Source of the DNA: Fibrobacter sp. UWB13
GTDB lineage: Bacteria > Fibrobacterota > Fibrobacteria > Fibrobacterales > Fibrobacteraceae
NCBI RefSeq assembly: GCF_900177805.1
Contig: NZ_FXAX01000002.1
Span: 62,001 to 126,000, forward strand
Reading direction: 5' to 3'
Length of the DNA: 64,000 nt
Below, piece by piece: positions 43,542 through 57,811 of the stretch (position 1 is its first letter; each line of letters opens with the position of its first letter). The position numbers and the translations under genes were made by a program. The notes below the pieces were generated by a model. That model saw nothing but the letters and a program-made list of their open reading frames with translations. It did no database searches and was not told where the DNA came from.

Positions 43542-46256
43542 CTAATCGAGCGTCATTAAGAGCGAATCAACACGGTGCGTCATCTGTGTTGCACCAACAG
43601 GGCAAAGGTGCTGCTGATCATCTGCCATACTATCTGGATAATCATGATCACCCATCTTGTTTTCGTCCATCACAATAAAATGAGGGTATTTCTCATGCAT
43701 GGCGGTCAAGACCTTCGTCAAAGAATCGGCTACACTTCGGCGCGTGCCATAACAGGCGAAACGACCTGTTTTCTTATAATTCGGACTCACAGGGAAAACT
43801 ATCCCTATGACGTATATATCCCGCTTATCCGCCGTTTCAATGAGATTAACAAGAGTATCCATCGCCATTTTAATACCACGCGGAGTAAGCGAAGTCGAAT
43901 CCCAGCCACAAACACTAGTTCCCCATCCATTGCAACTTCCTACCGACCAATAGCCCATGTTTTCCCTCAAGGCCACCCCATTCTGGTCGCTATACCCGTC
44001 TTCGGTCAGTTCAGCAAGCCCTTCTGGAATCCCTGACGCCCAGTATCCATGATTTTTGTCATAGATATAGCCCGGGAAACTCTTGTAGTTCGAATAGAAG
44101 AAATTATGGTCCGATTCCGGCCCATAGCGCCACAAATCATAATCCAGCGACAAAATAATATAGCGCAAATTCTTGACATGCGGGTAAACATAATGGTCTA
44201 GGTAGAACTTAGACTCATAAATACCGCTCGGCGTCTGCGCCAAATTCAGGACAAAGAATTTTTCATTAAACTGCTTAGGAACAATGCCATCTAGGGGCCT
44301 AGAAGATCCAAGCACAATGACATTCGCCTGGTCGTGGAAATTCCACAGGAGTTCCATATTGTTACGCATCAGGCCGTTGCCCACAGCCCCGTATTTGGAA
44401 TTCAGGTACATTCCAGCGCTATCAGGATCTAGAACAAACAAAATTTCAGCCGACGTCGAAGATTCAACGGTTTTACTCGAAGAAGAACTTTCTTGCGTTA
44501 CAATTTTCTTCTGCTTTACCCACAGGCAGGGGTGCCAGAGTTCAGAGCCTTCCGCAAGTTCCATAACCTTATTAGAGGCAACATCCACCAGTGCAATTTT
44601 CTGGTGTACACCGTTTGCATTGACAAGCGTAGCAACCGCGAAATTTTTTTCGGCCACCCATTCCGCATGATCAAACGTATAGCCCTTCGGCGACTCTATC
44701 GACTGCACCAGCTTCCCTGTACTGTCCGCAATCAGCAACATTTCATGTACGGAATATTTCTTACCCACAAACGCAGCACCCGTTTTTCCCGCAAAGTCAA
44801 GGAACATCGTTCTATCACGGCCATCCCTTGAAAGCGAAACATTACAGGCCTGCTCTCCATTATACCACAGCTCATTATTTTGCGATTTATCCGTAAACCG
44901 TGTTGCACGCAACAAGGACGCCCCTGTCACGGCAAAACCTTTTTCAAAGGAAAGACCGCCATGAAAACTTCCCTGGAGCACTTTTTTCGGCGTTCCAAAT
45001 TTTCCATCTTTAAATGGAACATACCATGTACTATATTCGTTCCAAGTCGATTCAGACTTATTCGTTCCCGGATTTGTAACAAAAACAATCACGGTATCGC
45101 CATTATCCAAGATTCGCCATCGCGGAATTGCCGCCCCCTCAACATTCAACTTGACAAGCCCCGAGCCAGACTCGTCTAATTTGCGAACATACACCGACGA
45201 CTCGCCCGCGACACCTTCAAGCCCCGTACAGAACGCAACATACTTGCCATCGGGAGAAACATCGGGATGGTACGAATCGATATCGTCCTGTATCTCCACA
45301 ACGGAATTTGCCGCATTCGCGTAATTAATGTAGGCTATATTACCGGTTTCGTCATTTCGGAAAACAAGCTTAGCCTGATAGGTTCCGAACAAATTGCGAA
45401 TATTTTCCGCCAAGGCTAACGGAGTAACAACCGACGTTACCGCACCAATCGGAGGATTGAACCAAACCGCATTTTCAATCTTTCCCAAAACCAGACGAAA
45501 GCCAACATATTCCGCCTTCGAAAGGGGCGTCACCGTATAGAAATCTCCGCGAGCATATAGTGGGACATTTTCCTTTACAAACGAGCTTCCCTTGAGGATT
45601 TTTTCGTCCATTCCGTTGGCATTCGCTGCGCCAACAAAGTTTTCAATAGTCGTATCGGCAAAAAAGCCCTTCCAGTCGTTCACCCATTCCTTGAGTTTTC
45701 CACTAATGTCGTCAGAACGAGTATTGGCGACAAACATCCATTCGGCCTCGGTCGGCAAGCGAAAGCCCCAAACATCATAATTCGTCTTCAAACCAACGAG
45801 ATTTTCGCACGACTTATCTTCAGCAAATTGAGCTTTGCTATAGGTATAAACCGTATCCATCTTATATTTTTTGCTCAAAGCATTCGCGTACAGGACCGCA
45901 TCATAAAATGTCACATTTGCTTGCGGATAATCAAAAGAATCCTTCTTGAAGGAACGATTCATCAGTTGGCCAAATTCGCCTTGAGTCACCTCGTGGACCC
46001 CGACACAGAAATCGTAGTCGAAATAAACCTTCATGGCAGGTTGTTCATCGGCTTTCGCTGTTTTCGACATTGTCCCAAGAACAGTTGTCTTTCCTTTTGA
46101 GTGAATATAAGCAAAGCCTTCTACAGGAACTTCTTCTTCGGAAGAGGCCTCTTTTTTTGAAATACCTTCGCTATCGCTGCATCCCCAAAGAAACATTACC
46201 AGAATTGGCAATGTTATTCTGCACAGCATTTTATGAATTGACGTAAATACAATCAT
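43542..46256 (-). CDS. Fibrobacter paralogous family TIGR02171-type lipoprotein
   Basis: 904 residues. A GGGAGGGG site precedes the ATG at 46256. The signal ends FLWGCSD, a lipobox. Residues about 45-260 form an FGE-sulfatase-like domain (CVGVHEVTQGEFGQLM, GFRLPTEAEWMFVA, GFRLVLG). The middle (about 270-600) looks like a WD40/PD40 beta-propeller (YHPDVSPDGKYVAFCTGLEG). A Ser-rich linker (about 610-625) leads to a C-terminal SGNH-like domain with NVIVLGSSRPLDGI and a late DENKMGDHDYPDSM. This order and size match the TIGR02171 family, known from Fibrobacter, function unknown. It is flanked by a duplicated gene pair. Confidence 0.87.
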   Translation of the reverse strand: MIVFTSIHKMLCRITLPILVMFLWGCSDSEGISKKEASSEEEVPVEGFAYIHSKGKTTVLGTMSKTAKADEQPAMKVYFDYDFCVGVHEVTQGEFGQLMNRSFKKDSFDYPQANVTFYDAVLYANALSKKYKMDTVYTYSKAQFAEDKSCENLVGLKTNYDVWGFRLPTEAEWMFVANTRSDDISGKLKEWVNDWKGFFADTTIENFVGAANANGMDEKILKGSSFVKENVPLYARGDFYTVTPLSKAEYVGFRLVLGKIENAVWFNPPIGAVTSVVTPLALAENIRNLFGTYQAKLVFRNDETGNIAYINYANAANSVVEIQDDIDSYHPDVSPDGKYVAFCTGLEGVAGESSVYVRKLDESGSGLVKLNVEGAAIPRWRILDNGDTVIVFVTNPGTNKSESTWNEYSTWYVPFKDGKFGTPKKVLQGSFHGGLSFEKGFAVTGASLLRATRFTDKSQNNELWYNGEQACNVSLSRDGRDRTMFLDFAGKTGAAFVGKKYSVHEMLLIADSTGKLVQSIESPKGYTFDHAEWVAEKNFAVATLVNANGVHQKIALVDVASNKVMELAEGSELWHPCLWVKQKKIVTQESSSSSKTVESSTSAEILFVLDPDSAGMYLNSKYGAVGNGLMRNNMELLWNFHDQANVIVLGSSRPLDGIVPKQFNEKFFVLNLAQTPSGIYESKFYLDHYVYPHVKNLRYIILSLDYDLWRYGPESDHNFFYSNYKSFPGYIYDKNHGYWASGIPEGLAELTEDGYSDQNGVALRENMGYWSVGSCNGWGTSVCGWDSTSLTPRGIKMAMDTLVNLIETADKRDIYVIGIVFPVSPNYKKTGRFACYGTRRSVADSLTKVLTAMHEKYPHFIVMDENKMGDHDYPDSMADDQQHLCPVGATQMTHRVDSLLMTLD

Positions 46257-47727: not shown

Positions 47728-47750
47728 GGCGGCCGAAGCCGCCATTTTTT
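47728..47750. terminator. Bidirectional terminator between the cupin gene and rseP
   Basis: GGCGGC CGAA GCCGCC (47728-47743) is followed by ATTTTTT on the + strand and TTTCTTTT on the minus strand. Confidence 0.88.
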
Positions 47751-49131
47751 ATTTCAAGAAGAGCGAGATTTTCCCGAAATCGAGAATCGTGATGAACACG
47801 AAGAAGCTGATGAAGAAAGCCGCCGCGACGTTCTGGATCACGGATTGCGTCTTGAGGCTCAGAGGCTTGCCGCGCACTTTTTCAATGCCGAGGAACAAGA
47901 GGAGACCGCCATCGGTAATGGCAAGCGGAAGCAAGTTCATCACGCCGAGGTTAATGCTGATAAGCGCAAGAAGCATGAGGAAATCCTGGAATCCGCTCAT
48001 CCACACATTTCCCATCACGGCGACAATCGAAACCGGACCGGAGAATGCATCGACTTTCACCTGGCCTTGGAACAAGCGCTTGAAATAGCGGAAGATGCTC
48101 GTCGTCATTTTCCAGCTCGTAGCGCAAGTCTTTTCGAACGCTTCAATCGGGCCGCGGCGCACGAGATGCGTTTCACTAAACATCACATAGCCCATCTGGA
48201 TGCCGACGATATAACGCTTGAATTCTTCGCTATAGGCAGGCGTCATCTTCACGTCAACTTTCTTGCCATCGCGCAAAAGCGTCACGTTGACTTCGGCACC
48301 TTTGGAACCATCAATCAAACGAACAACTTCTTCGTAGCGCGAAATATGTTCGCCATTGATTTCGAAAATAGTGTCGCCCTGCGCAATTCCAGCCATTTGC
48401 GCGGCTGAGCCTTCCTTCGGCGGCAGGCGGACAATCACGCGATTGCGCGGATAAATACCGATATCGCCGATGCCCATCTTGATGGGTTCAGAAGTCGAAT
48501 CGGCCGCCGGAATCACGAGTTCTTGCGGAACGACCTTAATGGCAAGCGGTTCGCCCCCACGATGCACTTCAAGCATCACATCGGCACCAAGGCTCACGCC
48601 AATCTGTTCGCGGAAATCGTCCCAGCCTTGCGTTTCCTTGCCATTGATAGCGGTAATCGTATCGCCCGGCTGGATGCCTGCAATTTCGGCAGAAGAATTT
48701 TTCGCCACAAAACCGATAATAAGGTTCTTGTTATCCGGTTCCTGGACGCCGACCATGTAAAGGAAAATCAAAAGAATAAATGCAAATGCGATATTCACAA
48801 ATGGACCCGCAAACGCAATCGCTGCGCGAGCGCCAACAGACTTTCCCAGAAAATCATCTTGCGAAGGACCTTTACCTTCTTCAATGCTATCTGGATTTTC
48901 ACCCGCCATGGCAACATAGCCGCCAAAGGGAATCGCCGAAATGCAGTATTCCGTCTCGCCTTTCTTGAATCGGAAAAGCTTTTTGCCAAAACCTACCGAG
49001 AACGTATTTACGCGGACCTTGTTCCACTTGGCGACAATAAAATGACCCAATTCGTGAATGGTCACGAGGAAGCTCAATGCCAAAAGCCCCAAAACAAACA
49101 TCAACAAATTATTTAATATACTCGACATCAT
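47749..49131 (-). CDS. rseP: RseP-type site-2 zinc metalloprotease with two PDZ domains
   Basis: 460 residues. The zinc motif HELGH lies in the first membrane segment (FLVTIHELGHFIVAKW). Two PDZ domains follow (about 125-210 around GFVAKNSSAEIAGIQPGDTI, and about 225-305 around GSAAQMAGIAQGDTIFEI). The C-terminal membrane part has NLLPLAITDGG, the second catalytic motif with Asp. RseP cleaves membrane-bound anti-sigma factors and leftover signal peptides. In many bacteria it lies next to dxr; here two cellulase genes intervene. No Shine-Dalgarno is clear at the start. Confidence 0.95.
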   Translation of the reverse strand: MMSSILNNLLMFVLGLLALSFLVTIHELGHFIVAKWNKVRVNTFSVGFGKKLFRFKKGETEYCISAIPFGGYVAMAGENPDSIEEGKGPSQDDFLGKSVGARAAIAFAGPFVNIAFAFILLIFLYMVGVQEPDNKNLIIGFVAKNSSAEIAGIQPGDTITAINGKETQGWDDFREQIGVSLGADVMLEVHRGGEPLAIKVVPQELVIPAADSTSEPIKMGIGDIGIYPRNRVIVRLPPKEGSAAQMAGIAQGDTIFEINGEHISRYEEVVRLIDGSKGAEVNVTLLRDGKKVDVKMTPAYSEEFKRYIVGIQMGYVMFSETHLVRRGPIEAFEKTCATSWKMTTSIFRYFKRLFQGQVKVDAFSGPVSIVAVMGNVWMSGFQDFLMLLALISINLGVMNLLPLAITDGGLLLFLGIEKVRGKPLSLKTQSVIQNVAAAFFISFFVFITILDFGKISLFLK

Positions 49132-49148
49132 ACGGTCAATTTAGAAAA

Positions 49149-49176
49149 AAACGGCGCCCCGAATGGAGCACCGTTT
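49149..49176 (-). terminator. Terminator of the first GH9 gene
   Basis: AAACGG/CCGTTT outer arms with inner GC/GC and CC/GG pairs and two mismatches; a T run follows on the minus strand. It is a diverged copy of 51321-51348. Confidence 0.75.
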
Positions 49177-49204
49177 TGCATTCTATGAATATGAGAGAAT
49201 CGAT

Positions 49205-51193
49205 TTACTTGATGCGATGACCCTTGAGGTCAAAGCGCTTGCCGTTCTTTTCGATGAAGAGTTTCTGGTCATCGAAGCGGAGACGCGGCTGTGCCGAGCG
49301 CATCATTCTAGATTCGACCGGAGCGTGAATTGCAATCGTCCCCTGCGAACTGGAGGATTCCACGTTTGCAGAAGAGCTGGAGGAAACGCCCGGAACAGAA
49401 GAACTACTTGCAACTTCGGAGGAAGAACTCTGCGGAACACTCGAAGAAGAGCTTGCGGGAGCTTCGGAAGAGCTCGATGCAGGTACATCCTGTTTTGCAA
49501 CGCCTGCGGCGGCAAATTCTGGTGCATAGCCCGCGTTGATGGCTTCAATAGCGCCAGCGAGATAAGCGAGCGGAGCGTTCCAGTTGATAGCGACTTCGTT
49601 CGTAGCATAGCTGCAACGCTGATCGGTGTAAGCGGTTGCCGCCTGGCCCTTGCGATAATCAGCGCACTTCCATTCTGCGGCAGAACCAACGTCTTCGCCG
49701 CCAGGCTGCGGGCCACCCACGAGCATACCCGGGATCGGTTCTTCTACGTTATCCGAAGTACTCGGACGGTGGTGCGGCATTTTCGGAGACTTCGTACCGT
49801 AACCCGTTACGAAAGACATGTCGAGCGGGTTCTTGCCGAGCAAGTAATCAAGAACCTTGACGGCAGCCTTGTAATACTTCTGTTCACCCGTGAGGTAGTA
49901 GGCATGCAAGAGCCAAACACCCTGATTGGAGGCAACCGCATTGGAACCCCATACAAAGTCATCCTTTGCCATCACGACGCCAAAGCCTTTTTCGGCGCGG
50001 TTAGCAAAGTTGTCTGCAGTACCCAAAATCTTTTGCTTGGCTTCGTTTGCATCGCCACCAAATTGCGCCTGATGTGTAGCCTTTTCGTACGTGGCAAGGC
50101 CCATGACATCGCCCCAGTAAGAGACGTATTCCGATGAGCCGGACTGCTTGTAAGAAGCATCACCCGTCGTGATGAAGAGTTCTGTCCCGGCAAGAACCTT
50201 TTCGTCGTTCGGATTGTCGTTTTCGTAGGCACCCGTCGAGACATCCGACGGATTAGCGAGATAGTTGCGGCTCGGGTTCTGCTGGCCCCAAGCGTAAGCT
50301 TTTTTAGCGGCTTCGAGGCACTTGGAAGCGTAAGTCGCGTCGAACGGCTTGTAAATGCGGGAAGCCATTGCCATCACGGCAGCAAAGTCAAACGTACCCG
50401 CCGTGCTCTTGCCGATAGCATAGAGCTTGGAATTGTCCTGCGCCGGCATCACATCGCCCGGGAAACCGAGAGAGGTAAGCTTGTGGTAGACGCCGCCATC
50501 GGACGCCTGCATGGTGAGCATCCAGTCAAGATTGTACTTGATTTCGGCAAGCAAATCCGGGAGGGAGCCTTCGGCCGGGATGTTCCACTTGAGCGTCTTG
50601 AAATACTGCGGGAAGTGTTCGTAAAGAGAGAGGAGCGTGTAGGTCGTGATGCCCGAGTTCACAATGTAACGGCCGTAGTCGCCAGCATCGTACCAGCCCT
50701 TGGTCGAATTGATTGTACCCGAAGCACCCGTAGAATTGTGAAGTTCGGCAGTCGGATTCGTGTGGCCGGCTGCGCGGGCCCACTTGCCTGCATACTGGCT
50801 TTCGAGAGCCATGGAAGCGCGCTGGTAGTAGAACCACTTGATGGAAGCCTTGACGATTTCTTCGTACGTCTGGGATTTCACGACGAGATCAGAACGGAGC
50901 ACGTTGCCGTTTACCTTGATGCTGTACTTGCCCGCTTCGGCAAGCTTGGAGAAATCGACGAGCTGGACATTCTGACCGCTCGCATCCCAGTAAGATGCGG
51001 CCTTAGGCGTCACGGAGAGAACGACCTCACCGGCGGCATTTACGAAATCCACGCTGCCGTTAGCATCGACAAGAGCGAGTTCCTTGAAGTCGCCCGGACG
51101 ATAGCCAATCTGGTTGATGTAGGCAGTCGCTGCGAAAGCTGGGGCTGCGACGAGCGCGGCAAGCGCTACGGACTTTAACGCATGATTATTCAC
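49205..51193 (-). CDS. GH9 endoglucanase with Ser-rich linker and basic C-terminal tail
   Basis: A GTG at 51193 is chosen since GAGG lies 6 nt before it; an ATG at 51199 directly touches that site. The product has about 662 residues. A signal peptide (VALAALVAAPAFA) precedes an Ig-like CelD N-terminal domain (YINQIGYRPGDFKELALVD) and a GH9 (alpha/alpha)6 domain with the catalytic DAGDYG, HHRPS and NEVAINWNAP (acid Glu). A Ser/Pro-rich linker (about 580-625) leads to FIEKNGKRFDLKGHRIK, a tail shared with the next gene. It should cut internal beta-1,4 bonds of cellulose outside the cell. The two genes are tandem paralogues. Confidence 0.94.
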   Translation of the reverse strand: MNNHALKSVALAALVAAPAFAATAYINQIGYRPGDFKELALVDANGSVDFVNAAGEVVLSVTPKAASYWDASGQNVQLVDFSKLAEAGKYSIKVNGNVLRSDLVVKSQTYEEIVKASIKWFYYQRASMALESQYAGKWARAAGHTNPTAELHNSTGASGTINSTKGWYDAGDYGRYIVNSGITTYTLLSLYEHFPQYFKTLKWNIPAEGSLPDLLAEIKYNLDWMLTMQASDGGVYHKLTSLGFPGDVMPAQDNSKLYAIGKSTAGTFDFAAVMAMASRIYKPFDATYASKCLEAAKKAYAWGQQNPSRNYLANPSDVSTGAYENDNPNDEKVLAGTELFITTGDASYKQSGSSEYVSYWGDVMGLATYEKATHQAQFGGDANEAKQKILGTADNFANRAEKGFGVVMAKDDFVWGSNAVASNQGVWLLHAYYLTGEQKYYKAAVKVLDYLLGKNPLDMSFVTGYGTKSPKMPHHRPSTSDNVEEPIPGMLVGGPQPGGEDVGSAAEWKCADYRKGQAATAYTDQRCSYATNEVAINWNAPLAYLAGAIEAINAGYAPEFAAAGVAKQDVPASSSSEAPASSSSSVPQSSSSEVASSSSVPGVSSSSSANVESSSSQGTIAIHAPVESRMMRSAQPRLRFDDQKLFIEKNGKRFDLKGHRIK

Positions 51194-51320
51194 AAACATC
51201 CTCGTAAAAAAGTGCAAGTTTTAGCCCATATAATATAGAGCCGTTCAAGCATCTTTTCCACCCGTCCGAACATCATTTTAAAGAAAAGTGTTGCAAGTGT
51301 TTTGTAAAAAAACACATGAA

Positions 51321-51348
51321 AAACGGCGTCCCGGGAGAGGCGCCGTTT
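51321..51348 (-). terminator. Terminator of the second GH9 gene
   Basis: AAACGGCG/CGCCGTTT (51321-51328, 51341-51348) forms an 8-bp stem followed by T residues on the minus strand. The adjoining GCATTCTATGAATATG is shared with the 3' region of the other GH9 gene. Confidence 0.85.
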
Positions 51349-51390
51349 CTGCATTCTATGAATATGGATTTTTGAGGTTAGGTAGGAGAA

Positions 51391-53253
51391 TTACTTGATG
51401 AGATGACCCTTGAGGTCAAAGCGCTTGCCATTCTTTTCGATGAACACCTTCTGATCAGCAATACGAAGGCGCGGTGCAGTTTCAACCTTTCCGCGGTTTC
51501 TCAAAATCGAAGGCTTGAGAGCAGAAGTTCCACCCTTTGCAACACCTTCAACAGCGAAGGACGGGGCATAGCCAGCGTTCAAAGCTTCCATGGCACCCAC
51601 GAGGTATGCAAACGGAGCGTTCCAGTTAATAGCGACTTCGTTCGTGGCATAGCTGCAGCGATTATCCGTATAGGATGTTGCAGCCACACCCGTTCTATAA
51701 TCCTTGCATTCCCAGGACTTCGTTCCTATATCTTCACCACCCGGCTGCGGACCACCCACAACCATGCCCGGAACAGGATCCGTCACCTTATCGGCTGTAC
51801 TCGGACGATGGTGCGGCAGTTTCGGAGACTTTGTACCAAATCCAGTCACAAAGGACATATCAAGCGGGTTCTTGCCAAGCAAATAGTCCACCACCTTCTT
51901 GGCTGCCTCATAATACTTCTGTTCACCGGTCACGTAGTAAGCGTAAAGGAGGAACACGCCCTGGTTACCAGCAACAGCATTCGAGCCCCAAACGAAATCT
52001 TCCTGAGACATGACAACGCCAAAGCCCTTCGTTGCGGCATAGGCAAATTCGTTGGCATAGTCTGTCAACATCGTTTTTGCAGTTGCAGCATCAGCAGCCA
52101 CTTCCGTCGGATGGCTAGCTGCGCCATAAACCGCAAGTCCATAGACTTCAGGCCAGGCAGGAACAATACTGGATTCGTTCGGATCCAGCGTCGGCTTGTA
52201 CGAGACATCGCCTGTAGAAATAAACATTTCCATACCAGCGAAGACCTTTTCATCGGTCAATTTGCCATCGCCATATGAACCAGTAGCAACATCCATCGGA
52301 TTGTCGAATGCCACCTTCGGATTCTGGACGCCCCAAGCATAAGCCTTCTTTGCTGCTTCAAGGCACGTTGTGGCATAAGCGGCATCAAACGGTTTATACA
52401 CACGATATGCAGCAGCCATAACCGCAGCAAAATTGAACGCAGCCGCAGTACCCTTTCCAATCACATAAAGCGGTTCCGTATCCTTGGCAGGCATCACATC
52501 GCCCGGGAACTGGAGCGTCGAAAGCTTGTGGTAAACGCCGCCATCTGCAGCCTGCATGGTAAGCATCCAGTCGAGATTGTACTTGATTTCGGCAAGCAAA
52601 TCCGGCAAAGTTCCTTCAGCAGGGATGTTCCACTTGAACGTCTTGAAGTAATCCGGGAAGTGTTCATAAAGCGAAAGGAGCGTGTAAGTCGTAATGCCCG
52701 AGTTCACGATATAGCGACCGTAGTCACCGGCATCGTACCAGCCCTTGCTCGATTCAATCGTGCCCGAAGCACCCGTAGAGCTGTGAAGCTTAGCCGTCGG
52801 ATTCGTGTGCCCCGCATCACGCTTCCACTGACCTGCATACGTTTCTTCCAAAGCCATGGAAGCACGCTGATAATAGTACCACTTGAGGGCGGCCTTAGCA
52901 ATATTTTCAAACGGCTTTTCGGCAATCACCAAATCGGAACGGAGTACCTGCCCACCCTGCGTGATGGAATAAGTCCCAGGTGCAGTCAAATCAGAGAAAT
53001 CAACGAGCTGTACATCCTGACCGCTCGGATTCCAGCGAGAAGCAGCCTTCGGAGTGACCTTGAGCACAACCTGACCCGCGGCATCCTTAATTTCGATATC
53101 ACCAGAACCTTCAAAGAGCGTAAATTCCTTGGGATCCGTAGTGCGGTAACCAACCTGGTTGATGTAAGCCGTCGCAGCAAATGCTGTAGACGCAAGCGTC
53201 AAAGCGACTGCCGCAGCAGAAATATACTGTTTCAAGCCGAACGAGAACTTCAT
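51391..53253 (-). CDS. GH9 endoglucanase with basic C-terminal tail
   Basis: The ATG at 53253 has AAGGAG 7 nt upstream. About 620 residues: signal (ISAAAVALTLASTAFA), CelD-type Ig-like domain (YINQVGYRTTDPKEFTLFEG), GH9 catalytic domain with DAGDYG, HHRPS and NEVAINWNAP. There is no Ser-rich linker; a short basic stretch leads to VFIEKNGKRFDLKGHLIK. Apart from the linker it aligns along its length with the GH9 at 49205. Cellulose is the expected substrate; the tail may attach or sort the enzyme to the surface, which is inference. Confidence 0.94.
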   Translation of the reverse strand: MKFSFGLKQYISAAAVALTLASTAFAATAYINQVGYRTTDPKEFTLFEGSGDIEIKDAAGQVVLKVTPKAASRWNPSGQDVQLVDFSDLTAPGTYSITQGGQVLRSDLVIAEKPFENIAKAALKWYYYQRASMALEETYAGQWKRDAGHTNPTAKLHSSTGASGTIESSKGWYDAGDYGRYIVNSGITTYTLLSLYEHFPDYFKTFKWNIPAEGTLPDLLAEIKYNLDWMLTMQAADGGVYHKLSTLQFPGDVMPAKDTEPLYVIGKGTAAAFNFAAVMAAAYRVYKPFDAAYATTCLEAAKKAYAWGVQNPKVAFDNPMDVATGSYGDGKLTDEKVFAGMEMFISTGDVSYKPTLDPNESSIVPAWPEVYGLAVYGAASHPTEVAADAATAKTMLTDYANEFAYAATKGFGVVMSQEDFVWGSNAVAGNQGVFLLYAYYVTGEQKYYEAAKKVVDYLLGKNPLDMSFVTGFGTKSPKLPHHRPSTADKVTDPVPGMVVGGPQPGGEDIGTKSWECKDYRTGVAATSYTDNRCSYATNEVAINWNAPFAYLVGAMEALNAGYAPSFAVEGVAKGGTSALKPSILRNRGKVETAPRLRIADQKVFIEKNGKRFDLKGHLIK

Positions 53254-53393: not shown

Positions 53394-54542
53394 TTACTTC
53401 AAGAAGCCTTCTGTCATGAGGCGGGCTTCCTTGTCGGCTTCGAGCACTTGTTCAAGAGAAAGATGACCGGTGACATTCGGGGCCTTTTCCATCACCATTT
53501 CCACGTACTTCGGGATATCGGTGAACTTGAGGTTACCCTTGAGGAAACGGTCCACGAGGACTTCGTTTGCGGCGTTCATCATCGACGGCACGATACCGCC
53601 ACGGCGGCCAGCTTCAAAGGCAAGAGCGAGGCAACGGAACTTGTTGAAGTCCGGTTCGAAGAACGTGAGCTTTGCAAGCGTCGGCAAGTCGAGGCGCTTG
53701 GTTTCGAGCTTGAGACGGTCAGGCCACGTGAGAGCCACCTGAATCGGGATGCGCATGTCAGGAGCGCCGAGCTGGGCCATCAAGGAACCATCGCGGAACT
53801 GCACCAAGGAATGTACCATGGACTGCGGGTGAACCACAACCTTGATCTGGTCATACGGAATGTGGAACAAGAAGTGAGCTTCGAGCACTTCGAGGCCCTT
53901 GTTCATCATGGAAGCAGAGTCAATCGTAATCTTCTTGCCCATGCTCCACACCGGATGATTCAAGGCGTCGGCGACAGTGATTTTTTCAAACTTTTCAATC
54001 GGCCATTCGCGGAACGGACCACCCGAAGCCGTGATTTCGAGGAATTCGACTTCGGATTCGCGCTTGCCGCCTTCAAGGCACTGGAAAATGGCACTGTGTT
54101 CAGAGTCGATCGGCGTGATGAAGGACTTCGGATTTTCAGCAAGCTTGTCCCAAATGACCGGGCCTGCCATCACCATCGTTTCCTTGTTCGCAAGAGCCAC
54201 ATGCTTGCCATGTTCAATCGCCGTAATCGTCGGGAGGCAGCCCACAGCGCCCATCAAGGCGTTGATGATGATGTCCGCCTTCGGGTCGGCAGCGAGTTCA
54301 CAGAGGCCTTCCATGCCGACAAGGACCTTTCGGCCAAGCACGATTTCGAGTTCTTTTGCAGCGACTTCGTTGAACATGCACACGCGTTCGACATTGTACT
54401 TGCGCACGATTTCTGCAACCTTGTTCACACTGCTATTTGCAGCTACGGCATAAAGGTGGAACAAATCGGAATGCTGTTGAATGACGTCAACACTAGAGGT
54501 TCCGATAGAACCGGTGGCACCCAGGAGAACTACATTTTTCAT
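53394..54542 (-). CDS. dxr: 1-deoxy-D-xylulose 5-phosphate reductoisomerase
   Basis: 382 residues. The NADPH-binding start MKNVVLLGATGSIGTSSVDV is followed by ALANKETMVMAG, the metal/substrate motif PIDSEHSAIFQCLEG, ITASGGPFREW and the region ALNHPVWSMGKKITIDSASMM. These are diagnostic of DXR (IspC), the second enzyme of the MEP isoprenoid pathway. Its product feeds undecaprenyl phosphate made by UppS, encoded 5 kb upstream. It has its own terminator. Confidence 0.97.
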   Translation of the reverse strand: MKNVVLLGATGSIGTSSVDVIQQHSDLFHLYAVAANSSVNKVAEIVRKYNVERVCMFNEVAAKELEIVLGRKVLVGMEGLCELAADPKADIIINALMGAVGCLPTITAIEHGKHVALANKETMVMAGPVIWDKLAENPKSFITPIDSEHSAIFQCLEGGKRESEVEFLEITASGGPFREWPIEKFEKITVADALNHPVWSMGKKITIDSASMMNKGLEVLEAHFLFHIPYDQIKVVVHPQSMVHSLVQFRDGSLMAQLGAPDMRIPIQVALTWPDRLKLETKRLDLPTLAKLTFFEPDFNKFRCLALAFEAGRRGGIVPSMMNAANEVLVDRFLKGNLKFTDIPKYVEMVMEKAPNVTGHLSLEQVLEADKEARLMTEGFLK

Positions 54543-54697
54543 TTAAAAACCTCGATAATTGCAAGCTTTTTTATAAAGATAGAATAATAATTTTCATTTA
54601 CAGCTCCGCTCCAAAAAACGCTTACAATAATTTACATTCCAAAGAAAATTTTTAGGGTATATTTTTATTGGGTTAGGTTTGCTCGAAGGAGGTGCAT

Positions 54698-56683
54698 ATG
54701 CGCATACTTTCCTCGGGTGTATATGCTGCGTGTTGTTGCGCAGTGGGGATGTTCATAGGGTGCTCGGATTCTTCGGACAACGGAGTCTCCGGAGAAAACA
54801 GTAATCTTTCTTCCGTTACAGATGATTTTGGAATTTCGTCCAGTTCCAGTTTTACAGGGAACGCAGGCGGTTCTTCGCCATCCGGGGATTTGATTTCTTC
54901 AGAAGCGGAGTCTTCAGTGGGGAATTCGGCAACGTCTTCCAGAATGCAAGGGAGTTCCTCGGGCTCAGTCAAAAGCTCTTCAAGCGGGCATCCGCACAGA
55001 AGTTCTTCTTCGGGAATCGAGCAAGGGAACTCCTCTAGTGCACATGCAAATTCCAGTTCTAGCGAGAGTTCCTTTGTTTATACTTCACCCGCAAATTTTG
55101 CAGACACGGTAAACGGAGTCGCCTTCAACATGGTCTATGTGGCTGGCGGCACTTACACGCGCGGCTGCGACAACTGTGCCGAGCCTGATAAAATTTACGA
55201 AACACCTTCGCATAAAGTAACAGTTGACGAATACCATATTGCACCGACCGAAGTAACGATAGCCCAATGGAACGCCGTCATGGGCGGGAAAAAGAATGCA
55301 TGGGAATCGGACAAAGCTCCCAAAATCGGCGTAAGCTGGTTTGACGCCAACAATTACGCCTGCAAGCTTGGGCAAAAAACAGGGAGACAGTACCGACTGT
55401 TGACCGATGCCGAATGGGAATTTGCGGCCCGCGGTGGCAAAGACGGAATTGCAGACAAGTTTAAATTTTCAGGTAGTAACAACGTCGATGATGTGGCATG
55501 GTATTCCGAAAACAGCGGCGGAAAATCACACGATGTTGCCACTAAGAAACCAAACAAGCTTGGACTTTACGACATGAGTGGCAACTCATGGGAATGGGTC
55601 TATGACTGGCTCGTAGCCTACACGGACGCAGACAAGGTAAATCCGGTACAGCTCACAGGAAGTGGCAACAAGACGCGAAGAGGCGGGAGTTACGGCGAGC
55701 CCGCGGATTTTGCGCGAGTGAGCCGTCGCGCCATCCGCAGCCGCGATGGCGCTGCAGACATGGGCTTTAGACTAGGCATGTCTACGAAACTCCCGCCGGG
55801 AATGGTAAGCCCCTGCGAAGCGGCAAATCCGTCTGCAGCCACCTGCCAAGGCGACAAGAATCGCGACTGCCGCTTGATTACCACCGCAGACGAAGCCTGG
55901 ATCAGCGACGACTACACTGTCGTTATCGGAGAAAATGGTGTTGCGGCAGTTTCTGGCTTCCCGAATGTTTCAGGGCAGTGGTACACGCTCAACAACCGCA
56001 GTTTTAACGTTGTCACCAAGAGTGGCACAAAGACTTACGCTTACTACGTGTTCAGCGAAGATGAACTCACAATGATTAGCGATGACGGCATTCCATACCG
56101 TCTGTACAGGCGAGCCGCAAGCGAAGCCAAGAATAAAGTAAGTCTCCCGACCGTAAGCAATCCCAAGACTTTAGCACAGCTTATCGCCGCTGTAGAACCC
56201 GAGCGCATCGTCACAGACGAGCAACTCGCCCACCCCGACACAAGCGTTCGCGATCCGCGCATTGCAGCCGCAAGCGGATACACGTGGTTTTTCGACGGGC
56301 GTTGCTGTGGCGGAAACCATAAGTACCGCTTCCACTTAGACAAGAGCGGCGATGCAGAATTTGTCGTCATGGACTACGACGACACCCACCACGAAAACAT
56401 TCTCGCCAAAGGGCGCTGGTTCACCGTCGGAAATATCGGTCTCCACATCGTTTTAAACGGCAAGTATTTCAACTACCTTTACACGGCGGGCGAACGCACC
56501 ATGAGCTTCAGCGAATACATGCCGGCGGGCCCCATTTTCTGTCACATTTCATTCCAGAGCTATGAACGCGGCGACTTCCGCATTTTCAATAAGACTTTAT
56601 TCGATGATAAAATCAAGCGCCCACGCGGCTTCAACGGAGAAAATCCAGTCTATGAAGCCGGCGATTACCAGTGGGGTTCGTAA
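54698..56683 (+). CDS. FGE-sulfatase-type lipoprotein with Ser-rich linker
   Basis: The ATG at 54698 has AAGGAGG 5 nt upstream. About 661 residues. The signal ends GMFIGCSDSS, a lipobox. A long Ser-rich linker (about 25-125) leads to an FGE/SUMF1-like domain (about 135-375) with FNMVYVAGGTYTRGCDNC, TEVTIAQWNAVMGG, RLLTDAEWEFAARGG, LYDMSGNSWEWVYDW and GFRLGMS. A C-terminal region (about 380-660) of unknown fold has beta-rich motifs (FFDGRCCGGNHKYRFHL). FGE-fold proteins include sulfatase activators and ergothioneine or surface-adhesion forms. It runs directly into the next gene. Confidence 0.85.
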   Translation: MRILSSGVYAACCCAVGMFIGCSDSSDNGVSGENSNLSSVTDDFGISSSSSFTGNAGGSSPSGDLISSEAESSVGNSATSSRMQGSSSGSVKSSSSGHPHRSSSSGIEQGNSSSAHANSSSSESSFVYTSPANFADTVNGVAFNMVYVAGGTYTRGCDNCAEPDKIYETPSHKVTVDEYHIAPTEVTIAQWNAVMGGKKNAWESDKAPKIGVSWFDANNYACKLGQKTGRQYRLLTDAEWEFAARGGKDGIADKFKFSGSNNVDDVAWYSENSGGKSHDVATKKPNKLGLYDMSGNSWEWVYDWLVAYTDADKVNPVQLTGSGNKTRRGGSYGEPADFARVSRRAIRSRDGAADMGFRLGMSTKLPPGMVSPCEAANPSAATCQGDKNRDCRLITTADEAWISDDYTVVIGENGVAAVSGFPNVSGQWYTLNNRSFNVVTKSGTKTYAYYVFSEDELTMISDDGIPYRLYRRAASEAKNKVSLPTVSNPKTLAQLIAAVEPERIVTDEQLAHPDTSVRDPRIAAASGYTWFFDGRCCGGNHKYRFHLDKSGDAEFVVMDYDDTHHENILAKGRWFTVGNIGLHIVLNGKYFNYLYTAGERTMSFSEYMPAGPIFCHISFQSYERGDFRIFNKTLFDDKIKRPRGFNGENPVYEAGDYQWGS

Positions 56684-57811
56684 ATGAATAAACCTACACA
56701 AAGCGCGCTCTGCGCGATTGCGGCTTATCCCTTGTTCGCCGCAATCGCATACACGGCGATGCTTTCAGCCTGTGACAATGCCACATCCACAACAGCTCCT
56801 GAAAGCACCGCTTCATCCTCTTCCACAACTACAACAATTGAGGAGCCATCAAGTTCAGCCATTCAACAAAGCTCATCGTCAAGCGTGCAAAAACAATTTT
56901 CCAGTTCATCACGAAGCAGTCATCGGCGGTCTTCGTCTTCTGCAGTTCAAACAAGTTCATCCGCAATTTCATCATCGCAAGAGACGCCAGTTTCTTCGTC
57001 TTCAGATGTAGCAAAATCTTCCAGTTCCTCGCAAACATCGCTACCAGCAAAAGAGATTTCGCTTGACGAGAACGGTTTTGCAACTGTCGCCGACGTCTAC
57101 AAGAGTCTTACCGCAGACGAAAAAGCAGTCTTCATCATTCGACATTCCGAGCGCGAAGACAATGTCGCCATAGAAACGGAACTCACCGCTAACGGCGTAA
57201 AAATGGCCCAAAATTTAGGTACCACGCTCAAGAGCGACGAAGAATTTAGTTACATCACTTCGGGATTCGTGCGCACCAACGAGACTGCAAACAACATTTC
57301 AAAAGGCCGTGGAGAAGCAAGCCTTCCAAAGCTCATCACGAACTACGATATTACCGGAAACTGGTTCTTGAAAATTTCTGCCGATTCCCTCGCACAATAC
57401 GGTACATCACTCGGAATGAAGGGTGGCTCCGTTGAACTCATGGCCCACTGGGCTTACGAAGGCGGCTACACAGACGCGCTTTACGAACTCACCCCACGCG
57501 CCGAAGAATTCATACAGAAAGTCATCCTCAAGAATTTACCCAAGTGGAAACGCGTAAGCATCATGGTCTCGCACGACATTTTCGTCATGCCGCTCGCCGT
57601 GTTCGGCTCCAAAGGCAAAGTCGCCTTGAAGTACCATGAAGATTACCACTGGATTAATTACATCGCCGGGCTTGCCATCATCATCGGGGCAGACAACAGC
57701 TTGCGCTATGTTCCGGTCAAAGGCGCAGATTCAGGCGTTATTGACTACCTCGCCATTTACATGGAGGAGCACGGCATGGGAGGCAAGAAGCCGTTAACCC
57801 CCAAAAGATAA
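56684..57811 (+). CDS. Histidine-phosphatase-family lipoprotein
   Basis: 375 residues. The start codon follows the upstream stop with no gap (TAAATG) and no separate ribosome site, which implies coupling. The signal ends AMLSACDNA. A Ser-rich linker (about 35-120) leads to a histidine phosphatase domain starting FIIRHSERED, the RHG-type motif with the catalytic His (RHS here). VSIMVSHDIFVMPLAVFG supplies the second catalytic His. The target could be a phospho-sugar or phosphate ester in the periplasm or on the surface; there is no direct evidence. Confidence 0.85.
   Translation: MNKPTQSALCAIAAYPLFAAIAYTAMLSACDNATSTTAPESTASSSSTTTTIEEPSSSAIQQSSSSSVQKQFSSSSRSSHRRSSSSAVQTSSSAISSSQETPVSSSSDVAKSSSSSQTSLPAKEISLDENGFATVADVYKSLTADEKAVFIIRHSEREDNVAIETELTANGVKMAQNLGTTLKSDEEFSYITSGFVRTNETANNISKGRGEASLPKLITNYDITGNWFLKISADSLAQYGTSLGMKGGSVELMAHWAYEGGYTDALYELTPRAEEFIQKVILKNLPKWKRVSIMVSHDIFVMPLAVFGSKGKVALKYHEDYHWINYIAGLAIIIGADNSLRYVPVKGADSGVIDYLAIYMEEHGMGGKKPLTPKR

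Follow-up and report, generated by a model that had tools for sequence, protein, structure and literature searches.

A tandem pair of genes for glycoside hydrolase family 9 (GH9) cellulases, celE-celD, was reportedly described in Fibrobacter succinogenes S85 by Malburg et al. in 1996. The small RNAs that derive from the 3′ untranslated regions (3′-UTRs) of enterobacterial genes, another described system related to the present work, have conserved letters in single-stranded RNA immediately ahead of an intrinsic terminator with a variable hairpin. Here we analyze a tandem GH9 pair of Fibrobacter sp. UWB13, located in a stretch of 64,000 nucleotides (nt) of contig NZ_FXAX01000002.1 (to be referred to as the window) from a genome of 3.8 Mb. 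Each of the two genes encodes a short, basic C-terminal tail, and each is followed by a 16-nt box located directly before an intrinsic terminator. The tail is already published as the "basic terminal domain" (BTD) on the orthologues. The box, at what the original prediction had called the shared terminator, is the new part of this work.

The pair has the same gene order, lengths and basic C-terminal regions as celE-celD, as far as these are given in the accessible sections of the S85 papers, and those sections do not mention a 3′ box (PMC3079729, PMC6851124, PMC6204037). The portion of PMC6851124 at hand places the BTD at positions 578-620 of FSU_2361 and 620-665 of FSU_2362, and treats BTD/FPm-1 as one signal of the type IX secretion system (T9SS), mostly 65-90 residues long. 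Short T9SS signals are described for Prevotella intermedia in the available part of PMC11969387. They have 40–55 residues and one three-stranded sheet, and they are cut at a PT/GI motif in which the Ile is the most conserved residue. According to the same text, no other species of that phylum has been reported to combine short and long T9SS signals.

In our best explanation, which we hold tentatively and with slightly less than even confidence, the two genes are old paralogues for secreted GH9 cellulases that carry two separate signals at their 3′ ends, one in the protein and one in the RNA. The protein tail, 40-45 residues long, would be used as a T9SS signal and cut near its start. It consists of an (A/G)I motif, then a basic and flexible spacer, and last one predicted three-stranded β-sheet with a basic residue at its end. 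The box, which in each of the two mRNAs immediately precedes the intrinsic terminator, would have arisen after the gene duplication, in one Fibrobacter clade. It would have come to both genes, probably when the 3′ end of one paralogue was copied onto the other, and is maintained by strong selection on its letters. It would most likely act in RNA, either as a docking site for a regulator shared by both mRNAs or as the seed of a 3′-UTR-derived small RNA. The distribution, conservation and boundaries of these elements, the tree order and the predicted fold of the tail come from the analysis itself, whereas the use by the T9SS, the cleavage site, the spread by copying and the action in RNA are inferred.

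The tandem GH9 pair

51391 to 53253, minus strand: upstream GH9 cellulase of 620 residues (CelD_N and GH9), assigned as the orthologue of Cel9B/endoglucanase E (FSU_2361, Fisuc_1859)
49205 to 51217, minus strand: downstream GH9 cellulase (CelD_N, GH9 and Ser-rich linker), assigned as the orthologue of Cel9C/CelD (FSU_2362, Fisuc_1860)

The two genes had been predicted to align along their catalytic parts, and they do. CelD_N and Glyco_hydro_9 are present in both, and the paralogues are 63% identical over 660 aligned columns, with one large gap that corresponds to the Ser-rich linker. The Glyco_hydro_9 profile gives 301 bits for both proteins (curated cut-off 27.7, E ~1e-89). The Asp residue of DAGD and the Glu residue of NEVAINW, which we take to be the catalytic residues, are invariant among 36 aligned proteins. 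The downstream open reading frame (ORF) has 670 residues when read from a TTG codon, and 664 residues from an in-frame ATG six codons further. The upstream gene begins with its start codon at position 53253.

Judged from the lengths, the gene order, the position of the BTD and the published naming, the pair are the orthologues of Cel9B and Cel9C, as they are named in PMC6204037. The passages of that paper at hand report that the downstream cellulase responds to cellulose and cellobiose, and the upstream one to cellulose only. The amounts of both orthologues are up in the cell envelope on cellulose, according to the accessible text of PMC6851124.

A conserved 16-nt box before both terminators

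51351 to 51366, minus strand: 16-nt box CATATTCATAGAATGC of the upstream copy, 24 nt 3′ of the stop codon
51319 to 51350, minus strand: terminator hairpin and T-run of the upstream copy (from the fold and covarying pairs)
49178 to 49193, minus strand: 16-nt box CATATTCATAGAATGC of the downstream copy, 11 nt 3′ of the stop codon
49145 to 49177, minus strand: terminator hairpin and T-run of the downstream copy (from the fold and covarying pairs)

For the downstream gene, box and hairpin (49145-49193) fall just outside the region that spans the two genes (49205-53253). Similar 3′ sequence, including a hairpin, had been noted for both genes. It consists of the box, identical at all 16 positions, and of a G+C-rich hairpin with a T-run, the two hairpins being roughly 77% alike. 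A search of the window that allowed three mismatches finds the box at these two places only. The genome has two exact copies, both at the GH9 genes, and five other matches with two mismatches that appear unrelated, based on the flanks of all five and the ORFs of three. The near-matches CATATTCATAGAATCC were considered as a third box site and rejected, being coding DNA of an ExbB-like gene. The presence of the same box at both genes is more than expected by chance, as it is confined to these two sites in the window and has just two exact copies in the genome, and as the two genes are identical at just 87 of 212 four-fold degenerate sites.

A match to the box with up to one mismatch is present in 24 of 80 genomes of the genus, and there are 25 exact matches in 17 genomes. 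Of these exact boxes, 24 are located directly after a tail-bearing GH9 gene, the exception being in G049 (locus L130). The reversed box, used as a control pattern, has a single match in all 80 genomes. The 3′ flanks of GH9 genes with the tail, counted as distinct when they differed in the first 90 bases, number 81. An exact box is present in 21 of them, a box with 1–3 mismatches in another 6, and no box in the remaining 54.

The box is sharply bounded and nearly invariant at the 3′ ends of both genes in one Fibrobacter clade. Its 16 columns have pairwise identities of 0.84–1.00, eight of them at 1.00, compared to 0.22–0.58 for the preceding 20 columns (based on the 24 of 28 box-clade flanks that have the box with four mismatches or fewer). 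The conserved run continues past the box into the AAA that follows. For reference, identity at four-fold degenerate sites in 14 box-clade genomes is 0.476 among the upstream orthologues, 0.563 among the downstream orthologues and 0.438 between the paralogues.

The hairpin varies in its loop and its letters with its pairs kept, and 4 of 10 pairs have changes on both sides. The G+C-rich hairpin, the T-run and the pairs kept through these changes identify it as an intrinsic terminator. The two GH9 hairpins are not among the results of a generic terminator scan, though they are plain in RNA folds. In the consensus structure, the letters of the box form no pairs. Single folds contain a weak 5-bp stem, which is broken in variant copies, indicating that selection is on the linear letters of the box. 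The region has no match among the Rfam covariance models, and literature searches, with subscription papers outside their scope, found neither a 3′ element nor a small RNA described for these genes of Fibrobacter.

The box could simply be part of a better terminator, as it is located directly before the A-tract and the stem, and is gone where the terminator has been replaced. A general enhancer of termination would be expected at many genes, however, and not in two exact copies in its own genome, with 24 of 25 copies in the 80 genomes at GH9 ends. We consider this explanation improbable, and reject on the same counts the candidate roles of a general terminator part and of a dispersed repeat.

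Origin of the box

The original prediction held that the duplication of the two genes included the terminator, and this is not borne out. Sister lineages have both GH9 copies without the box and with other, unrelated terminators, which places the duplication before the appearance of the box. The order of events in a tree calculated by a quick method agrees with this. The tree contains 78 GH9 rows, obtained by deduplicating the genes by their last 400 residues (from 105 to 79) and leaving out L189. The downstream copies form one clade of 33 rows, with a support of 100. This clade splits into two groups. In the first, of 17 rows, the box or a near copy of it is present in 12 and absent from the basal row; the second, of 16 rows, is entirely without it. 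Within the box clade, 5 of the 17 downstream genes are without the box. In species without the box, the rseP-type protease gene is also found 3′ of the downstream copy.

It might still be argued that the original duplication already included box and terminator, and that other clades lost them later, since both copies have the box and then the hairpin, in the same order and with nearly the same spacing, and the downstream copy retains its rseP neighbor in the box-less species. This scenario has to account for the 16-row half of the downstream clade and the box-less basal row of the other half in the quick tree, as well as for upstream genes of several other lineages that are without the box. 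It needs several independent losses from both copies, and appears quite unlikely to us. A single gain of the box, with later copying of the 3′ end between the paralogues, fits better.

Possible role of the box in RNA

Two loci bear on the question of which transcript the box belongs to. At L147 the box is kept, with one mismatch, though rseP does not follow, and at L145 the box is gone and the 3′ flank is replaced, though rseP is present roughly 1 kb further on. The evidence leans toward the GH9 transcript, but with one case each it is not proof. On these two loci the box was rejected as an operator of rseP.

A different possibility is that the box functions as a DNA site, for example an operator or a recombination site, in which an 11-bp near-palindrome (ATTC-TAT-GAAT) would bind a dimeric protein. 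There is indeed a partial inverted repeat inside the box, and the box precedes the downstream GH9 gene and, in many cases, rseP. On the other hand, it is always located between the stop codon and the terminator, for both genes, its presence at L147 and absence at L145 do not follow that of rseP, and the variant boxes break the palindrome without compensation. We regard the DNA-site explanation as unlikely, although the possibility of a role at the DNA level weighs against our own explanation.

The box is probably read in the mRNA. In having conserved unpaired letters before the terminator and a variable hairpin, it is similar to the enterobacterial 3′-UTR-derived small RNAs. It differs from them in that Hfq and a conserved target were not found.

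Possible targets were searched for with the exact 12-mer complement of the box in four box-clade genomes. There are six matches in the genome of the window, three of them on start codons, two at the boxes themselves and one in the ExbB-like gene. Only 0.15 matches on start codons would be expected (from 373 sampled starts) compared to the three found (Poisson probability 5e-4). Among these candidates is a carbohydrate-binding lipoprotein of the Cthe_2159 type, which would suit a cellulase as a partner. Its orthologues were sought in 24 genomes, and a readable start region was obtained at 17 of 24 loci. As a separate observation, the leader TGAATGGGAGATAT before the start codon of the Ser-rich Cthe_2159-type lipoprotein in L229 (around 1506, G000:C1:754750) is strongly conserved among the Fibrobacter orthologues.

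Several results weigh against our account of the box. The site in the lipoprotein gene is intact in G000, G001, G045 and G068 only and is absent in the other box-clade orthologues that were read, so that the hint of a start-codon target failed its first test. Hfq was looked for in vain, and pairing of the box with the 5′ regions of its own genes does not go beyond that of shuffled sequences for 36 regions. With regard to the copying of the 3′ end, the codon identity of the tails is 0.64 within the same genome and 0.60 across genomes, which does not make a convincing case for recent copying; recent gene conversion of the tail, tried as a candidate, is thus not supported. We hold a small-RNA seed and a docking site for a common regulator to be equally likely.

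Distribution of the C-terminal tail

51394 to 51528, minus strand: C-terminal tail of the upstream copy, of the same kind as below (from alignment and predicted fold)
49208 to 49342, minus strand: C-terminal tail of the downstream copy (last 45 residues), with the (A/G)I motif, a basic spacer and a three-stranded sheet of roughly 26 residues PRLRFDDQKLFIEKNGKRFDLKGHRIK

The two GH9 proteins end in nearly the same tail, as had been noticed earlier (FIEKNGKRFDLKGHRIK and FIEKNGKRFDLKGHLIK). Searched with the last 34 residues, the genome has matches at three places, namely the two GH9 genes and a protein with GH5 and CBM6 domains, and profiles built from 3 and from 32 rows still have significant matches only to these three carriers. 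In relatives, the tail is also present on GH27, GDSL esterase-like and GLUG/YDG proteins. The proteome search proposed in the original prediction thus does locate the tail on other secreted proteins, and its confinement to the two paralogues is ruled out by the third carrier in the same genome and the carriers in relatives. The suggestion that the tail is a conserved sorting or attachment signal holds in kind, though it is one already made in print for the BTD.

The tail is nearly restricted to the Fibrobacteraceae. A match was found in 59 of 61 genomes of the genus, and in 74 of 150 Fibrobacterota genomes, of which 63 belong to this genus, 10 to the same family and 1 to another family, with one to five carriers per genome. 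In all 65 tails collected from the stretches of relatives (deduplicated by their last 60 residues), the tail is at the extreme C-terminus. Two further tails, at L110 and L112, are more diverged and were scored by a fuller profile. A Pfam scan of 10 chosen carriers gives GH9 (three), GH27 with CBM6 (two), GH5 with CBM6 (one), GLUG/YDG (three) and a GDSL lipase-like protein (one, with the Pfam match below the cut-off).

Some GH9 relatives have other ends. The 1920-residue GH9 protein of RUG10152 (L189, 4001-6181) ends in a tail like a long C-terminal domain (CTD) and not in the short one. A GH9 relative from Fibrobacteraceae MAG72 (L195, 4001-5743) stops right after the catalytic domain and is tail-less.

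Predicted structure of the tail and its possible relation to type IX secretion

The AlphaFold2 model of the last 45 residues, based on 30 rows, contains one three-stranded sheet, with block means of pLDDT of 91–92 over residues 21–45. The same sheet is predicted in the full upstream protein (36 rows, mean pLDDT 74), with block means of 70–81. In this model a disordered stretch (residues 573–591, pLDDT below 50) separates the catalytic domain from the sheet of the tail.

When compared by the published positions on FSU_2361 and FSU_2362, the tail fits the Fibrobacter BTD, of the short kind. It is nevertheless a separate family from BTD/FPm-1 as that group is treated in the accessible part of PMC6851124, with roughly 30 conserved residues and no match to TIGR04183. 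The tail resembles the short CTDs of P. intermedia, as these are described in the available text of PMC11969387, in its C-terminal location, its length of roughly 40-55 residues, its one three-stranded sheet (predicted here), a conserved Ile after a small residue and the basic C-terminus. It differs from them in having no recognizable motif B before the hairpin, no GxY and no profile match, and in belonging to a different phylum.

By this analogy, the tail is probably a short-form T9SS sorting signal. The host has the T9SS translocon, with the SprA model over its cut-off (1362 bits), and BTD/FPm-1 is proposed as a T9SS signal in general in the sections of PMC6851124 at hand. Of 73 distinct tails, 70 have an [AGS][ILM] pair close to their start. 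Among the long-CTD proteins of this genome, 13 of 24 have a related motif in the stretch where it would be expected, compared to 141 of 1150 stretches taken from these proteins as background. These long CTDs (24 for the motif count and 18 for the hhalign comparison below) were picked by pattern from 30 loci of the 85 TIGR04183 matches in the genome. Many of the 85 places end in FDxxGxxV...GxYxV...K, which suggests a large surface proteome.

This assignment has to be weighed against a number of negative results. At E values up to 1, none of the 85 TIGR04183 matches of the genome is at the three tails; the model also gives weak matches in 13 of 14 control genomes, one of them over the cut-off. 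No NCBIfam model matches any of 30 tails, and hhalign gives a probability of 2% for the tail against 18 long CTDs of the same genome, so that homology to these CTDs was not found at the sequence level. As TIGR04183, NCBIfam and hhalign are all negative, the tail is by sequence not a long CTD. The candidate that it corresponds to the N-terminal half of a long CTD (FDLxGH, by eye) was rejected, as hhalign gives no support. Fold searches with the tail model find nothing at E up to 0.001, and two matches at a Z score of 2.2. Neither motif B before the hairpin nor the GxY motif D could be recognized by eye in the alignments. Both orthologues are listed without a T9SS signal in the accessible portion of PMC6851124, and the part of PMC3079729 at hand states that the domain is on none of the cellulases. 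As the size, sheet, basic end and [AGS][ILM] pair are shared and motif B and GxY are absent, the tail probably works like a short CTD but is not filed as a member.

The tail could instead be a patch for surface retention or binding, in which the basic β-sheet would stay on the enzyme and attach it to an anionic component of the outer membrane or slime, or to the multi-protein cellulase complex. The tail is basic, compact, C-terminal and set apart from the catalytic domain, and models of sorting domains do not match it. The FSU_2362 orthologue is in a multi-protein complex of outer-membrane vesicles, as the available text of PMC6851124 says citing others. The same text reports no peptides that overlap the BTD/FPm-1 regions in mature proteins, which favors removal, and the (A/G)I motif is common to the tail and the long CTDs of the same genome. 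Overall, retention by the tail is a less than likely explanation, although one of some substance.

Ser-rich linker and neighboring genes

49337 to 49489, minus strand: Ser-rich linker, in the downstream copy only (from the alignment gap)

By a count rule, the Ser-rich linker is present in 32 of the 33 genes of the downstream clade, the 33rd having a shorter one, and in 1 of the 44 other rows. From this distribution, an old gain in the downstream lineage is favored. The original prediction had left open whether one copy gained or lost the linker; gain agrees with these counts, and loss is not favored.

The GH9 pair is flanked by the DXP reductoisomerase gene dxr (53394-54542) and the gene for an M50/PDZ protease of the rseP type (47749-49131). 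Two large, probably secreted proteins with FGE-sulfatase-like domains (43542-46256 and 54692-56683) flank the region, the second being followed directly by a Ser-rich histidine-phosphatase-like protein (56684-57811). The region has no near match in a plasmid collection.

Biological implications

An open question of rumen biology is how the cellulases of Fibrobacter are held at the cell surface. A small and well-bounded tail, on few proteins and separable from the many long CTDs, offers a clean object for tests, and natural variants exist in the long CTD-like end of L189, the tail-less protein of L195 and the GH27 enzymes with CBM6 that bear either kind. The long kind is described for the GH27+CBM6 enzymes of S85 in the accessible part of PMC6851124, and the short kind on those of relatives was found here. 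The box is a gene-specific 3′-UTR element, and literature searches for the phylum gave no such regulation.

In its broader form, which we put forward as rather doubtful, our explanation would give the Fibrobacteraceae a second, short class of T9SS signal on a few proteins per genome, beside dozens of long ones, together with a 16-nt RNA element of one clade, acquired after the duplication, that ties both cellulases to one post-transcriptional regulator or one small RNA. If this is true, two differently induced cellulases would be connected through a single post-transcriptional regulator, or both of their mRNAs would be sources of the same small RNA.

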